Part shown: piece after piece, positions 101-6,327 of the stretch | How the letters are laid out: the number at the start of each line of letters is the position of its first letter | How positions within the stretch are numbered: position 1 is the stretch's first letter | Assembly: GCA_016927635.1 (NCBI GenBank) | Contig: JAFGMJ010000178.1 | Coordinates: 1 to 6,335, forward strand | Reading direction: 5' to 3' | Source: Actinomycetota bacterium | Lineage (GTDB): Bacteria; Actinomycetota; Humimicrobiia; Humimicrobiales; Humimicrobiaceae | Length of the DNA stretch: 6,335 nucleotides | Made by a program: the position numbers and the translations under genes | Notes under the pieces: model-generated | Told to the model about the DNA's origin: nothing | The model's database searches: none | The model's input: the letters and a program-made list of their open reading frames with translations, nothing else

Positions 101-189
<89 letters not shown>

Positions 190-310: not shown

Positions 311-2122
311 TCATTGTGTAGCCTGTTCCTGCTTTGGTTTCAGGCATATAGCCAGATGCTCCCAAAGATTACCTGGTTTTACAATAAGCCCAAGCTCTTC
401 ATCCTCTTCAATGCTCTGTAAAAGCTCAAGGTCTGCAGGAATATTTAAAATGTCTATACTTCCATCATTTAAAAGACTTATAAGGTTATTTATATCAGAA
501 TTAAATATAAATTTTATTGCATCTATTTGAGGTTTTTCATCTTCATAATAGGGATTTGACTCCACTATTATGTGTTCGCCTTTAATCCATTCTTTTAGCA
601 TATAGGGTCCGCTTCCAAAAATATTCTCAGAAAACATTTCACTTAATTTCCTTCCCTCAACCATTTTTTGTGGAAATATTATGCTGAAAAATTCTTTCCA
701 GTTTGAGCTGTACTGTTTAAGTGTTAGGCTGAATTCTTTGTCATCAATGGCTTCAAGAGAGCTTATATTATTAAAATCAAGGCTTTTATACAACAGGGAT
801 TCATCTTCTTTTATTGCATTAACTGTAGCCACTACATCATATGCAGTTATTGGATCGCCATCCTGCCAGTATATATTATCCTTAAGTTTTATTGTCGCTT
901 TTAAACTCAGCTTTAAATCATCACCCTTTTCAAGAAAATCATCAGTGTTTCCTGTGCCAACACTTTCAACAAGATCAGGTTCATAAACGCCAGAATCGTC
1001 TTTTTTCCATAACCCCCTTACTATAAGGTTTATTATCTGGTCCCTGTAAATATTATCCGCAACCAGGGGATTTAAAAGATAAGGCTCCTGCTGAAAACCT
1101 GTTACAAGGCTTTTAGGGTTATCTCCCTTTTCAGATTCTTCTTCATCATTATTCTCATCGCTAATAATATCGATTGTGCCAATAGATGAAAGAAAACTAC
1201 CTGTATCTGTATTTGGCTCTATGCCTGATATCTTTTTATTATAGGCTATACAGAAGACCCTGCTGTAAAGCGGCAGTATAAATGCACTTTCTGCAAGAAT
1301 ATTTTGTGCCTGGTTTGATATATCCATATCAATGACATCAGTATTTCCAGGTAAAAGACCATTTAATGCAGATTCAAATTCTTTATTATCATACCAGTAA
1401 TAATTATTACAATTCCTGTTTGTATCTGATTCAAGCGGTGGAATCTTATTTGAACTGAAATAATTTATAAGTGAGTTAAAATCCGGTGTATAAATAGCCC
1501 ACAGGCCCAGTTCATAATTACCAGATTTAACATATTCGACATACCACTCTCTTGACTCCTTAGCGGTATTCCATACCTTTATTCCAATGGCTTCCAGATT
1601 TTCTTTAACTATATCCTGTATTATCTGTCTTGAATTACTATCCTGGCTGGCGCCAAGAGTCAGATAAAGAGGATTATTTATATCATATCCTGCAGTTTTT
1701 AAAAGCTCTTTTGCTTTCCCGGGATTATAGGAATAAATGTCCCATGCAGGATAATAATATTTGCTGTCATTATTAAATATGCTGTTTAAAACTACATTAT
1801 AATTTCCAAAAAGCTCTTCTATTATTCTTTTTCTGTCAATAGCAAAAAATATCGCTTTTCTTATATTAATATCGTTTAAAGGGTTCTTATTTGCCTGTTT
1901 GCTTTTCAGTTCATAGAAATACTGTTCAGTAAAAATGCCAGATACTGCGTCTGTCGCCTCTGTCATTTCCTGTTGGCTTTCTTTCTGGCTTTCAACAGTA
2001 AGCCCAAGAGGCTCAAATTTGCATGCACTTAAAAAAATCCCTGATACTGCAGAAAAAACGAATGATATAATCACCAATAATGCAGCAGAAAATTTAAAAA
2101 ATCTGTATTTTTTATTTTTCAT
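311..2122 (-). CDS. Oligopeptide/dipeptide ABC transporter substrate-binding lipoprotein with circularly permuted domain order
   Basis: This is a probable extracytoplasmic solute-binding lipoprotein (SBP_bac_5, DppA/OppA type) of 603 residues. Residues 1-33 are a signal peptide with basic N-terminus and hydrophobic core, ending in lipobox LSAC with the lipidated Cys at 34. Residues 35-63 form a polar tether. Residues 64-316 resemble the usual C-terminal part of the family: NPLNDINIRKAIFFAIDRKR (80-99), the YNPGKAKELLKTAGY helix (132-146), and ILPLYSR (282-288) near the usual end. Residues 317-337 are an acidic linker. Residues 338-598 resemble the usual N-terminal part: GFQQEPYLLNPLVAD (342-356), EPDLVES (381-387), IYWQDGDPITAYDVV (417-431), GSGPYMLKEW (503-512), NPYYEDEKPQIDAIKF (523-538). 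The order is therefore inverted, while the sum (about 510 residues) equals one normal mature protein. The reading frame is open throughout with an ATG start. No good ribosome site is seen; a GGCGG lies about 17 bases upstream. It is the last gene of the operon. Function as a peptide binder is inferred; the ligand is unknown. Confidence 0.9.
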   Translation of the reverse strand: MKNKKYRFFKFSAALLVIISFVFSAVSGIFLSACKFEPLGLTVESQKESQQEMTEATDAVSGIFTEQYFYELKSKQANKNPLNDINIRKAIFFAIDRKRIIEELFGNYNVVLNSIFNNDSKYYYPAWDIYSYNPGKAKELLKTAGYDINNPLYLTLGASQDSNSRQIIQDIVKENLEAIGIKVWNTAKESREWYVEYVKSGNYELGLWAIYTPDFNSLINYFSSNKIPPLESDTNRNCNNYYWYDNKEFESALNGLLPGNTDVIDMDISNQAQNILAESAFILPLYSRVFCIAYNKKISGIEPNTDTGSFLSSIGTIDIISDENNDEEESEKGDNPKSLVTGFQQEPYLLNPLVADNIYRDQIINLIVRGLWKKDDSGVYEPDLVESVGTGNTDDFLEKGDDLKLSLKATIKLKDNIYWQDGDPITAYDVVATVNAIKEDESLLYKSLDFNNISSLEAIDDKEFSLTLKQYSSNWKEFFSIIFPQKMVEGRKLSEMFSENIFGSGPYMLKEWIKGEHIIVESNPYYEDEKPQIDAIKFIFNSDINNLISLLNDGSIDILNIPADLELLQSIEEDEELGLIVKPGNLWEHLAICLKPKQEQATQ

Positions 2123-2157: not shown

Positions 2158-2180
2158 GCATTATTTTAAAAAAATAATGC
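2158..2180 (-). terminator. Perfect AT-rich hairpin after oppF, possible weak terminator or processing site
   Basis: GCATTATTTT (2158-2167) and AAAATAATGC (2171-2180) are perfect 10-bp inverted arms around three bases. On the minus strand the hairpin begins at the last base of the oppF stop codon and is followed by a T-rich tail, TCTTTTATTT. The stem is mostly A-U, so any termination would be partial. The arrangement could separate expression of the binding protein from the ATPase and permease genes, or protect upstream mRNA from 3' decay. The structure is seen directly; the role is inferred. Confidence 0.45.
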
Positions 2181-3181
2181 TATATAGGCTTTCCTGCAAA
2201 GAAACAGGCAGCTAAATGCTCATTTCCGGATAAGTCATAATTTTTTAATTCAGGTTCACTTTTACTGCAGATTTCCTGGGCGTTTGGACAACGCGGATGG
2301 AACCTGCAGCCACTGGGCGGATCAATAGGACTTGGCACATCACCTTCAAGGATAATCCTTTTTCTCTGCTTTTCAGCCTCCGGGTCAGGTATTGGAACTG
2401 CAGAGAGAAGGCCCATAGTATAAGGATGCAGCGGTGATTTATATAAATCTTCGCTATTTGCAACTTCAACTATTTTCCCAAGGTACATGACAGCTACCCT
2501 GTTGCTGACATGTTTGACAACTGAAAGGTCATGTGCAATAAATAAATAAGTAAGGTCAAACTCTTTCTGGAGACCATTCATAAGATTTAAAATCTGTGCC
2601 TGGACAGACACATCAAGCGCTGATACAGGTTCATCGCACAAAATCAGTTTGGGAGTAAGAGCTAATGCCCTTGCAATTCCTATTCTCTGTCTCTGCCCTC
2701 CACTGAACTCATGCGGATACCTGTTTATATGTTCCGGGTTTAGCCCGACTGTTTTTAATAGTTCTTTGACCTTGCTTATCCTTGATTTCTTGTCGCTAAT
2801 GCGGTGTATCTCAAGAGGTTCGCTTATTATGTCTCCAACAGTCATCCTTGGAGAAAGTGAAGCATAAGGGTCCTGGAATATTATTTGTATTTCTCGCCGC
2901 ATTTTAAACAATTCATGATTATTCATCTTAAAAATATCTTCACCTTTATAATATGCATGGCCAGATGTTGGGGCAGTTAATTTAAGTATCACTCTTGAAG
3001 TTGTGGACTTGCCGCAGCCGCTTTCTCCTACAAGGCCAAATGTTTCGCCCTTTCTTATAAAAAAACTGATATCATCCACAGCTTTAACTGTGCCCTGGGA
3101 TTTCTGGAAAAGAAATCCACCGCGCAGATTGAAATATTTTTTAAGGTTTTTTACTTCAAGTAATTTATTATTATCTGTCAT
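2180..3181 (-). CDS. oppF: Oligopeptide/dipeptide ABC transporter ATP-binding protein, OppF/DppF-like
   Basis: One of the two cytoplasmic ATPases that energise peptide import. At 333 residues it has normal family length. Seen in order: Walker [10 protein letters not shown] (52-60), Q-loop with Gln103 in [13 protein letters not shown], signature FSGGQRQR (159-166), Walker B LILCDEP (179-185; Asp183, Glu184), D-loop SALD, and switch His217 in IAHDLS. The C-terminal oligopeptide-type extension starts around 248 ([11 protein letters not shown]) and carries four cysteines at 292, 298, 305 and 326, the pattern linked to a 4Fe-4S cluster in Dpp/Opp ATPases. The OppF rather than OppD assignment rests on the N-terminal [20 protein letters not shown] insertion, the [11 protein letters not shown] sequence, and its position after the OppD-like gene. 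Start at ATG 3181; the upstream region has only a distant GGA. Opp and Dpp cannot be told apart from sequence alone. Confidence 0.95.
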
Positions 3182-3283: not shown

Positions 3284-4303
3284 CTACTTTTTTACCCTGG
3301 AAAGACTTCCGCTTAAAAACTCTTGCGCTCTTACACATGCAGCAAAGTGGCCCTTTTCTATCTCAACAAATGGCGGATATTCTTTCCTGCATTTTTCTAT
3401 AGCATATCTGCATCTCAGCCTGAATACACAGCCCTCAGGTAAGTCTATAAGACTTGGAGGAGTGCCTTCAATTGGTTTTAGCTGTTCACGTTTTGTCTCA
3501 TCAAGGCGCGTGATAGATTCCATCAGTCCAAGTGTGTAGGGATGACATGGTTTATAAAATATTGTACCAACATCAGAAAATTCAACTGCTTTCCCAGCAT
3601 ACATTACCATGACTCTGTCAGCATATTTTGCAACTACGCCAAGGTCATGGGTTATTATAATAATTGATGAATTTGTTTTTTCCTTGAGTTCCTCCATAAG
3701 TTCAAGTATCTGGGCCTGTATTGTCACATCAAGCGCAGTAGTGGGCTCATCTGCTATCAAAATGTCCGGGCTATTGGCAATAGCCATTGCAATCATTACT
3801 CTCTGCCTCATTCCTCCGCTGAACTCGTGAGGATAACTGGTAAACCTTCTTTTTAAATCCGGTATGCCTACCATTTCAAGAAGCTTATAACTTTCTATTC
3901 TTGCTGTTTTCTTATCAACATTTCTGTGAGCGATTATTGCTTCCATAATCTGGTTGCCTACTGTAAAAACAGGGTTTAAACTTGTCATCGGGTCCTGAAA
4001 AATCATCGATATTCGGTTTCCCCTGAAATCCTGGAGTTCCCTTATATTCATGTCCAGAATATTATTTCCGTTAAATAAAATCTCTCCCTCAACTATCTTG
4101 CCTGGAGGCTGCTTTATAAGACGTAGTATTGAAAGGGCAGTTACGCTTTTGCCTGAACCTGTTTCTCCTACAATACCGAGAGTTTCCATGACTTTAAGGT
4201 CAAATGAAACTCCATCAACAGCTTTTACTACTCCTCCATCGGTGTAAAAGTATGTCTTTAAATTTTTTACTTCAAGAATCTTATTATTATCTGTACTGTC
4301 CAT
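3284..4303 (-). CDS. oppD: Oligopeptide/dipeptide ABC transporter ATP-binding protein, OppD/DppD-like
   Basis: The second ATPase of the importer, predicted to pair with the OppF-like protein beneath the two permeases. Counting 339 residues from the ATG at 4303: Walker A GETGSGKS (46-53), Q-loop Gln103 in MIFQDPMTSLNP, signature FSGGMRQR (161-168), Walker B ILIADEP (181-187), switch His219 in ITHDLG. The C-terminal extension contains CHPYTLGLMESI and cysteines 292, 298, 305 and 323, matching the OppF spacing for the first three. The MRQRVMIAMAIANSP stretch is typical of the D-type subunit. A TTG at 4318 would extend the protein by five residues. I prefer the ATG because the resulting start, MDSTDNNKILEVKNL, parallels [13 protein letters not shown] of the paralogue, and neither start has a visible Shine-Dalgarno. 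The gap from oppC is 94 bases and very AT-rich. Confidence 0.95.
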   Translation of the reverse strand: MDSTDNNKILEVKNLKTYFYTDGGVVKAVDGVSFDLKVMETLGIVGETGSGKSVTALSILRLIKQPPGKIVEGEILFNGNNILDMNIRELQDFRGNRISMIFQDPMTSLNPVFTVGNQIMEAIIAHRNVDKKTARIESYKLLEMVGIPDLKRRFTSYPHEFSGGMRQRVMIAMAIANSPDILIADEPTTALDVTIQAQILELMEELKEKTNSSIIIITHDLGVVAKYADRVMVMYAGKAVEFSDVGTIFYKPCHPYTLGLMESITRLDETKREQLKPIEGTPPSLIDLPEGCVFRLRCRYAIEKCRKEYPPFVEIEKGHFAACVRAQEFLSGSLSRVKK

Positions 4304-4397
4304 ATATTTTAAAATCAATAATCGCTTTATTTTATATAAAAATTATTTTTCTGTTTTATTTTAAAAATCATCATTTTTCGGTATAAGAGCATTTATT

Positions 4398-5348
4398 TTA
4401 CTGCTTCATCTTTGGATCAAATGCGTCCCTTAAACCGTCCCCAAGAAGCACAAAACCTAAAACAGTTATCATTATCGCCAGTCCTGGAAATACCATCATC
4501 CAGGGAGCAATATCAATATAGTCAAGTGATTCTGAGAGCATTTTGCCCCAGGCAGGCGTTGGGGGCTGTACGCCAATGCCAAGGAAACTGAGTGCCGCTT
4601 CAACTATTATTGCTGTACCCACATTCATAGTTGCATAAACAATTATTGGTGCGAATGAATTGGGGAATATATGCCTGGTTATAATTCTGTAATTACTTGC
4701 ACCAAGCGCCCTGGCCGCCTCGACATATTCCTTATTTTTTATAGACAGTATAGAGCCCCTGAAAATCCTTGCAAATGATGCCCAGCCAAGAAGCCCTATA
4801 GCAATAAAAATATTTAAAATACCCTGGCCAAGCACCGTCATTATAGCAATGGCTCCTAAAATATAAGGGAATGCAAAGAATATATCAGCAATGCGCATTA
4901 TTACAGCATCAGATACTCCGCCAAAATATCCGCTTATTGCACCCAGCACCAGTCCTATAAGAACAGAAATGCCTACTGCAATAACACCTACTTCAAGTGA
5001 AATACGGCTGCCATATATTACCCTGCTTAAAATATCCCTGCCCAGTACGTCTGTTCCAAACCAGTAAGTGCCGCTGGGGCCAAGCATGGAATCTTCTTTT
5101 ACTCTATCAATGGGGTCATAAGGCGCTATAAAAGGCGCAAAAATTGCCAATACGATTAAAAAAATAACTATTGCCAGGCCCAGCATGGCCAGCTTATTTC
5201 TTTTTAATCTTTTCCATGCGTCTTTATAAAGAGAAGTCTTTGCATACTTCCTGCCCATAAAGAAATCCTGGGCAAGACCGATACTCACTTCTCCTTCTTC
5301 TACACTGCTGTCTATATTTACTTTTTTTGGGTTTTCTATGTCATCCAT
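4398..5348 (-). CDS. oppC: Oligopeptide/dipeptide ABC transporter permease, OppC/DppC-like
   Basis: One of two inner-membrane subunits forming the translocation path. At 316 residues it is slightly longer than classic OppC/DppC because of an acidic N-terminal tail (about residues 1-35). The OppC N-terminal region (SLYKDAWKRLKRNKLAMLG, 39-57) leads into the first membrane segment, about 54-76. A periplasmic part follows with YDPIDR and the hallmark HFGTD-like WFGTDVLGRDILSRVIYGSR (96-115). About five more membrane segments follow, roughly 116-140, 150-172, 178-196, 232-256 and 284-304. The EAA loop that docks on the ATPase is EYVEAARALGASNYRIITRH (207-226), followed by IFPN. The C-terminus has the family's GDGLRDAFDPK. 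It starts 34 bases after oppB, presumably on the same transcript; no Shine-Dalgarno is seen. Opp versus Dpp specificity is not decidable. Confidence 0.95.
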   Translation of the reverse strand: MDDIENPKKVNIDSSVEEGEVSIGLAQDFFMGRKYAKTSLYKDAWKRLKRNKLAMLGLAIVIFLIVLAIFAPFIAPYDPIDRVKEDSMLGPSGTYWFGTDVLGRDILSRVIYGSRISLEVGVIAVGISVLIGLVLGAISGYFGGVSDAVIMRIADIFFAFPYILGAIAIMTVLGQGILNIFIAIGLLGWASFARIFRGSILSIKNKEYVEAARALGASNYRIITRHIFPNSFAPIIVYATMNVGTAIIVEAALSFLGIGVQPPTPAWGKMLSESLDYIDIAPWMMVFPGLAIMITVLGFVLLGDGLRDAFDPKMKQ

Positions 5349-5382: not shown

Positions 5383-6327
5383 TCATATGCTTGCTTCCTG
5401 TTTTTCATATCTTATTCTTGGGTCAAGCAATGCATATAGTATGTCTACAATAAGATTCATTATTACAAAAATACTCACCAGTATTATTGTTCCCCCGATT
5501 ACAACAGGAGCATCCCTCTGCAGCACTGCAAGATATAAAGTCCTCCCGACTCCCGGCCAGTTAAATACTGTCTCTGTAAGAATGGCGCCACCCATAAGTG
5601 CGCCAAGGTCAAGGCCGATTAATGTAACAACAGGTATAAGTGCATTTTTCATCGCGTGCTTTCCGACAACTTTTAACTGCGAAAGTCCCTTTGCATAGGC
5701 AGTAGTTATATAATCATTTGAAAGTGACTCAAGCATAGTGCTTCTCATCATTCTTGCAATATATGCAGTCGATACCGAAGCAAGCGTTATTGCCGGCAGT
5801 ATATAGTATTTTATGCTTCCGTCGCCATAGCCTGACATTGGCAGCCACCCAAGCTCCAGCCCAAACGTAACCTGCAATATCATACCCAGCCAGTATACAG
5901 GCACACATACGGCTATAGTAGTTGAAATCGTTACAAGAACATCCCAGAAAGTATATTTCTTGACAGCAGAAACAATACCGGCAAAAACCCCAATGATTAT
6001 TTCAATTACTATTGCTGCAAAAGCAAGCCTTATTGAATAAGGATAGTGCTCCGCAAGGATATCATTTACTGAGCGACCATAACGGTAAGATGTTCCAAGG
6101 TCACCTGAAAAAAGCCCCTTCATATATCTCCAGTACTGTACATAAAGCGGCTTGTCAATGCCCATTTTTGCTCGCAGGTTTGCAAGCGCCTCCGGGGTGG
6201 CGCCTTTCTGCAGGATAAGCTGGGCAGGGTCTTCAGGAATCACATACATAAGAATAAAAAGTATCAGCGTAACACCGATAACAACCGGAATAACCTGCAA
6301 TATCCTTCTTAAAATAAAATAAAGCAT
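5383..6327 (-). CDS. oppB: Oligopeptide/dipeptide ABC transporter permease, OppB/DppB-like
   Basis: The partner permease of the OppC-like protein, 314 residues, close to OppB length. It begins with the family's MLYFILRRILQVIPVVIGVT, giving a first membrane segment at about 9-29. The periplasmic loop holds IPEDPAQ (30-36), LRAKMGIDKPLYVQYWRYMK (51-70) and GDLGTSYRYGRSV (75-87), all typical. Further membrane segments lie near 101-122, 133-156, 175-193, 234-256 and 276-300. The ATPase-docking EAA loop is DYITTAYAKGLSQLKVVGKH (205-224) followed by AMKNALIP, and TETVFNWPGVGR (251-262) is a strong family signature. The C-terminus has YALLDPRIRYE. The ATG at 6327 is only eight bases (all but one A) from the window edge, so its ribosome site and any upstream gene or promoter cannot be judged. 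It is complete within the window if this start is correct, which the N-terminus supports. Confidence 0.95.
   Translation of the reverse strand: MLYFILRRILQVIPVVIGVTLILFILMYVIPEDPAQLILQKGATPEALANLRAKMGIDKPLYVQYWRYMKGLFSGDLGTSYRYGRSVNDILAEHYPYSIRLAFAAIVIEIIIGVFAGIVSAVKKYTFWDVLVTISTTIAVCVPVYWLGMILQVTFGLELGWLPMSGYGDGSIKYYILPAITLASVSTAYIARMMRSTMLESLSNDYITTAYAKGLSQLKVVGKHAMKNALIPVVTLIGLDLGALMGGAILTETVFNWPGVGRTLYLAVLQRDAPVVIGGTIILVSIFVIMNLIVDILYALLDPRIRYEKQEASI

Follow-up and report, generated by a model that had tools for sequence, protein, structure and literature searches.

Natural circular permutation has been described for bilobed substrate-binding proteins (SBPs) of several classes. The lipoprotein TpMglB-2 (Tp0684) is reported as a natural permutant SBP which still binds glucose and changes shape (PMC4990184). 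The protein studied here likewise appears as a natural circular permutant of a bilobed SBP lipoprotein; however, TpMglB-2 ('Type Ic / Cluster Bc') is a glucose binder of the Type I class, while ours belongs to the SBP_bac_5 family (Pfam PF00496), and in TpMglB-2 the first three N-lobe strands were moved to the C-terminal end, while here a whole half was moved, with the cut at the hinge (PMC4990184). Glycine betaine-binding proteins are reported to be related by permutation to one another and to molybdate-binding proteins (PMC2395249); the likeness again lies in permutation within bilobed binders, but these are of another SBP class and the relationship came from structure comparison. Among the matches listed from the open literature on circular permutation of SBPs, there was no permuted SBP_bac_5 protein. 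Use of several SBPs by one importer, as we propose here, has been described in Pseudomonas aeruginosa, where DppA1-A5, presented as orthologous SBPs, serve one DppBCDF; DppA5 did not complement (PMC4206461).

The closest canonical counterparts are E. coli DppA and other cluster C SBPs, with which our protein shares the fold part by part and the dppBCDF context, but not the order of the halves, and the AppA-like SBPs of Candidatus Hakubella thermalkaliphila (P0096/P0097; contig C3 of genome G001), to which both of its halves are homologous (40% and 31% identity to G001 for the two halves). The Hakubella-type proteins are also SBPs of dppBCDF-type operons, but they have the canonical order and their anchor leads into lobe I; moreover, the canonical gene of G001 heads its own operon, whereas the permuted gene sits at the tail of a dpp operon. 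Here, we analysed a stretch of 6,335 nucleotides (the window; contig JAFGMJ010000178.1) from an Actinomycetota bacterium that carries this permuted gene.

Inverted order of the two SBP_bac_5 halves

The gene occupies positions 311-2122 on the minus strand and encodes 603 amino acids in an intact frame; a public gene caller places the start at residue 17 (P0001, 587 aa). PF00496 matched the full protein with 211 bits (curated cut-off 32.4), residues 48-224 corresponding to profile positions 182-363 and residues 407-591 to positions 17-205, so that the later part of the profile comes ahead of the earlier one and there is no collinear match from N- to C-terminus. When the two parts were searched separately against the same cut-off, as the preliminary description had suggested, the first 330 residues matched profile positions 182-363 of 368 with 99 bits and the last 273 residues matched positions 17-205 of 368 with 117 bits. 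The inversion was also obtained against solved structures (for 1uqw, query 76-309 with chain 271-501; query 408-592 with chain 84-270) and with NCBIfam models. SBP_bac_5 was the sole Pfam family matched by the window protein or by any of the 54 members of its family (E up to 0.001), none of which showed Pfam homology to the Type I sugar-binding proteins of the TpMglB-2 kind. The DppA equivalog NF043070 gave 55 bits, below the required 1005.

The preliminary description had read inverted family landmarks as a circular permutation, with parts at residues 64-316 and 338-598, an intact frame and a proper lipobox. All of this held: the limits agree with the half limits used here (76-312 and 338-595), 50 of 54 aligned rows carry the lipobox Cys (the remaining four are gapped at that column), and the homologues with the same order that it had proposed to seek were found as 53 further proteins. 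Natural circular permutation of an SBP_bac_5 protein is as good as certain. A remnant of duplicated hinge (profile positions 182-205 at both ends) was also considered, in a position-specific comparison of the N-terminal 26 residues of 51 permuted rows with 82 canonical hinge segments; it was unsupported, as shuffled columns scored equally high in 140 of 500 cases.

Predicted fold, lipid anchor and tether

AlphaFold (AF2) models reached a pTM of 0.76 for the full-length protein and 0.82 for the mature protein without the signal and most of the tether. Each part superposed on the complementary part of E. coli DppA when compared part by part, and Foldseek and VIA report single parts because their alignment is sequential. 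The permuted protein is predicted to fold into one bilobed domain. LpqW, an SBP-fold protein with a non-transport role, was among the structural matches.

From the N-terminus, the protein starts with a signal peptide and lipobox (residues 1-34, ending in FLSAC34; 2021-2122, minus strand, as are all parts of the gene), as judged from the sequence and the conserved Cys. It is followed by a tether (residues 35-75; 1898-2020) with low pLDDT to about residue 62 and then a short helix at 66-74. The former C-terminal half (residues 76-312; 1187-1897), comprising lobe II plus the stretch that returns to lobe I, is defined by PF00496 positions 182-363 and, by structure, DppA 273-507. An acidic linker (residues 313-337; 1112-1186), recognized by its sequence and by low pLDDT at 323-333, joins the former C- to the former N-terminus, and its length was 13-43 residues in 51 members. 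The former N-terminal half, or lobe I (residues 338-595; 338-1111), corresponds to PF00496 positions 17-205 and, by structure, to DppA 1-263, and ends in the hinge strand ..LWEHLAICLK. A short C-terminal tail (residues 596-603) and the stop codon take up positions 311-337.

The chain is cut in the loop that immediately follows the hinge strand. Where canonical proteins read ..WEHLAFNQK and then ..PLRDINVRKAI, WEHLAICLKPK is the C-terminus of the permuted protein and PLNDINIRKAI follows the new N-terminal tether; therefore, the predicted lipid anchor would enter lobe II at the hinge rather than lobe I. Both a lipobox and a dpp/opp-type transporter next door are present, and secretion and lipidation, the latter at C34, are predicted, which would make the protein a lipoprotein. 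In E. coli DppABCDF, the DppB scoop motif is described as entering the cleft between the DppA lobes (PMC12136057), so that the hinge would face away from the membrane. Anchoring at the hinge would then need a longer tether, and a longer tether was observed: the distance from the lipid Cys to the first lobe had a median of 42 residues in permuted proteins (39-80, n=50) versus 20 residues in canonical relatives (5-90, n=102). Linker lengths were taken from 51 of 54 rows, and the outliers near 80 are likely mis-picked because the Cys was located by a simple pattern. We propose that the anchor would now run to the hinge side of lobe II along a tether roughly double the canonical length.

Two further sequence features of the permuted proteins were also seen. 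A C-x(2-6)-LG[LIV] motif lies behind the lipid Cys (residues 34-41 in the window protein) in 39 of 50 members. The other is a pair of cysteines characteristic of the permuted family: Cys 238 (1409-1411, minus strand) occurs in 51 of 53 members, at a position that is Gly in 93% of canonical rows, and Cys 593 (344-346, minus strand) in 47 of 53, with both together in 45 of 53; a disulfide between them that pins the new C-terminus is conceivable.

The permuted form is confined to one lineage among the genomes searched

A search of about 5.8 billion proteins, with 7,996 candidates scored, recovered the window protein and at least 53 others at E <= 2e-110, followed by a sharp drop to E 1e-20. Each of the 54 rows (P0001-P0054) had the swapped order, as had 24 ORFs from the fetched loci (genome G004 counted twice), which is far more than chance would give, while the remaining rows with two halves were all canonical (216, some of them repeats; none permuted) and 14 further rows carried one half only. 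A hunt with a family profile, again with 7,996 candidates scored, returned at least 120 rows, including 52 of the 54 known members (P0015 and P0053 were not listed), canonical-order proteins and four fragments with the former C-half only (P0215-P0218). It gave no new permuted relative among the listed longer proteins P0219-P0247, of which 29 of 29 were canonical, some on weak half-scores. Scanning of genome contigs gave 39 loci, 20 of the permuted family (L004-L023; L017 is cut before the second half); the other 19 held 13 ORFs with both halves, all canonical.

Within the class, 36 of 40 genomes showed some match to the query. The permuted form was found in 27 of 35 genomes of the window's family (f1), in three of these as a fragment at a contig end (G022, G032 and G034), and not in the five genomes of the class's other two families, where the matches were canonical. 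Of 396 genomes sampled from the phylum and scored at E up to 1e-15 with at most three candidates per genome, 79 had a match; there was no permuted hit outside f1, and the listed half-hit pairs outside f1 were all canonical. Named records among the loci include Candidatus Humimicrobium, Hydromicrobium and Calidifonticultor. NCBI assigns Candidatus Humimicrobium and Hydromicrobium to two families of a single order, Candidatus Humimicrobiales; since f1 is a grouping of our genome set, 'one lineage' is the safer wording. Source names of the permuted proteins, where given, are 'hypothetical protein' or 'substrate-binding protein', and annotation with a single profile hides the inverted order.

Both halves most likely derive from one ancestral type

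AppA-like SBPs from Candidatus Hakubella and its kin were the best unpermuted relatives; their representative in the genome set is G001, which belongs to the same class as the window's genome but to another family. The next canonical relatives include named Rubrobacter and Aquicultor proteins. For either half, the best canonical profile scores were of the Hakubella type. Trees were built from the N-half, the C-half and the joined halves with 88 rows (28 of the 54 permuted rows, after thinning and removal of short halves, plus a chosen set of canonical rows) by a quick method with SH-aLRT support only. The 28 permuted rows formed one clade with SH-aLRT 100 in all three trees. The head SBPs of their own operons fell outside it and were distant by path (3.5 or more). 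In the joined tree, the permuted clade has a long stem branch of 0.95, and 41 of the 42 canonical rows chosen group with it (support 98). The nearest canonical rows by path were Hakubella-type in each tree, from 1.65 (N-half), 1.24 (C-half) and 1.52 (joined). The clade adjoined ten Hakubella-type rows in the C-half tree, and its immediate neighbour in the N-half tree was the long-branch row can_P0213, a join which the program flags as unsafe.

These sequence comparisons suggest that both halves most likely come from one ancestral type. Both are nearest to Hakubella-type proteins, so that a single permutation of one AppA-like protein is probable and also gives the simplest reading. We propose that this event would have befallen an AppA-like lipoprotein of the lineage's ancestor, whose gene was probably duplicated in tandem and fused in frame, with the outer halves lost. 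In a genome of a sister family (G036, L102 7389-11050), two canonical SBP genes lie behind dppF and overlap by four bases; they are 28% identical to each other and not close to the permuted protein, and another canonical SBP heads that operon.

The permuted gene sits at the tail of a dpp operon

Upstream of the permuted gene, and also on the minus strand, the window encodes by Pfam match a dppF-type ATPase (2180-3181) and a dppD-type ATPase (3284-4318), both ABC_tran with oligo_HPY, a dppC-type permease (4398-5348; BPD_transp_1 and OppC_N) and a dppB-type permease (5383-6327; BPD_transp_1 and BPD_transp_1_N). A tRNA-Leu (gag) lies downstream of the permuted gene (101-189, minus strand). The layout in relatives is canonical SBP - dppB - dppC - dppD - dppF - permuted SBP; the window contig stops 8 bases upstream of dppB, where relatives carry the canonical head SBP, and the window's assembly (77% complete, 280 contigs) gave no second PF00496 hit.

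The whole layout was present in 14 of the 27 f1 carriers (in G022 with the permuted gene cut by the contig end). In two others the head SBP is cut by the contig end, and in eight, the window included, the contig starts inside the operon; of the remaining three, G005 is split between contigs, G014 lacks dpp genes and G004 has the gene before a different dppBCDF set. The permuted gene lay directly after dppF in 24 of 25 genomes with the window-type dppF and its downstream region on one contig, a count that leans upward because those 24 loci were found via the permuted gene itself, as does the share of operons with the permuted gene, since SBP hits led to the loci. The search for further dpp copies covered 14 genomes. 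Of 19 loci measured, 15 had fewer than 75 bases between dppF and the permuted gene, two had 156-201 bases and two an overlap, all approximate because each ORF was taken from its longest open start. Scans for promoters and terminators found sites no more often than in shuffles.

Eight f1 genomes are non-carriers. Contigs of G019 and G020 stop before the slot; G003, G007 and G018 have only other transporter types; and G013 and G016 gave neither an SBP_bac_5 nor a dppB hit. In the last five, neither a window-type dppB nor the permuted gene was found, and these double absences agree with joint loss of transporter and permuted gene. G025 (79% complete, 6% contaminated) shows dppF on contigs L140 and L141, followed by 520 and 281 bases in which there is no permuted gene; the two contigs carry near-identical dppCDF. 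In G007, one ORF (L139, 2859-4424) matches dppD over two successive stretches and also dppF, apparently a fused pair of importer ATPases.

Two carriers deviate from the usual context. G014 (94% complete, 220 contigs) has an intact permuted gene beside gpmI (L089, contig C45, 3923-5653); in this genome neither DppB (E up to 1e-20) nor DppF (E up to 1e-60) had a match, nor did BPD_transp_1_N and oligo_HPY. In G004, the permuted gene stands before a different dppBCDF set (dppB 38% identical), whose dppF reads as two overlapping ORFs. We considered the permuted protein as the sole SBP of the G004 transporter and rejected this, as the set is a different one and the contig ends there; in G003, of the same genus, a similar set has an SBP-like ORF after dppF, of which the contig contains just the start before it ends. 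In both genomes, diverged dppBCDF genes lie behind gpmI in place of the usual set (L074, contig C92 of G004; L142, contig C128 of G003).

The gene is under purifying selection, and its product lacks two ligand residues of DppA

The dN/dS ratios of the permuted gene were 0.07-0.21 in the seven usable of eight pairs (the saturated pair L077-L079 was left out), rough values because dS exceeded 1 in five of the seven, and indicate purifying selection as judged from the sequences. Head SBPs gave 0.045-0.091 in five pairs, and dN was higher in the permuted gene than in the head SBP in 5 of 5 pairs compared. The permuted family keeps 19 of 54 conserved canonical columns in lobe I and 23 of 42 in lobe II, and the EPxxLNP-type motif is absent from 15 of 54 members (partial rows included); these losses suggest that the function of the permuted protein may have shifted. 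In DppA, R383 and D436 are described as holding the dipeptide ends (PMC12136057). By sequence alignment, the permuted protein has no equivalent of either: both residues were absent in 28 of 28 permuted rows, and also in 42 canonical kin, whereas head SBPs had D436 in 8 of 9 and R383 in 0 of 9. Given these differing residues, the two SBPs of the operon probably bind different ligands.

Discussion

We consider it probable that this swapped-half lipoprotein, folded as one bilobed domain, is a second substrate-binding protein of the adjacent DppBCDF importer, a likely role in view of its operon position and conservation. The permuted protein would still bring its lobes together around a ligand and pass this on to DppBCDF, while the canonical DppA-like head SBP would serve other ligands. 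An unlikely but serious alternative is a transporter-independent lipoprotein (a sensor, scavenger or regulator, compare LpqW) that merely shares the operon. The gene kept in G014, where no dpp-type transporter was found, and in G004 without the usual dppBCDF would fit such a role, as would the long stem branch, the many lost canonical positions and the structural match to LpqW. However, the permuted gene follows dppF in nearly all readable genomes, even if those loci were found via the gene, and it is missing from the five f1 genomes without the window-type dppB; moreover, G014 is split into 220 contigs at 94% completeness, and in G012 dppB is hidden by nothing more than a contig break. We still prefer to read the protein as the importer's second SBP.

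The other two alternatives concern the origin of the gene. A hybrid of halves from two different SBPs might be imagined from operons with more than one SBP, from the tandem tail genes of the sister family and from the branch of can_P0213, not of the Hakubella type, beside the permuted clade in the N-half tree. That join, however, is flagged as long branches meeting, while the half trees agree on one fully supported clade with Hakubella-type rows nearest by path, and the profile scores of both halves point to the same proteins, which makes a hybrid very improbable. An assembly or gene-calling artefact, conceivable for one short contig of a fragmented assembly, has practically no probability left: the 53 other database proteins and many independent MAG assemblies with the same order exclude mis-assembly and have already refuted it. 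A single permutation of one AppA-like protein is thus retained as the simplest origin.

We tentatively suggest, as a possibility that is still doubtful, a new hinge-tethered 'cluster Cc' class, with two SBP geometries per importer and a permuted partner that, in one lineage or more, outlived its transporter and took on a function of its own. In the TpMglB-2 study, tethering was brought up as one conceivable reason for the permutation, but the authors did not settle the matter (PMC4990184). The permuted SBP_bac_5 proteins provide a second, independent case for this question. Within a single bacterial class there are the unpermuted relative, the permuted form and, encoded in the operon of the latter, a canonical partner SBP, so that the effect of the tether point and of the chain cut is directly testable.
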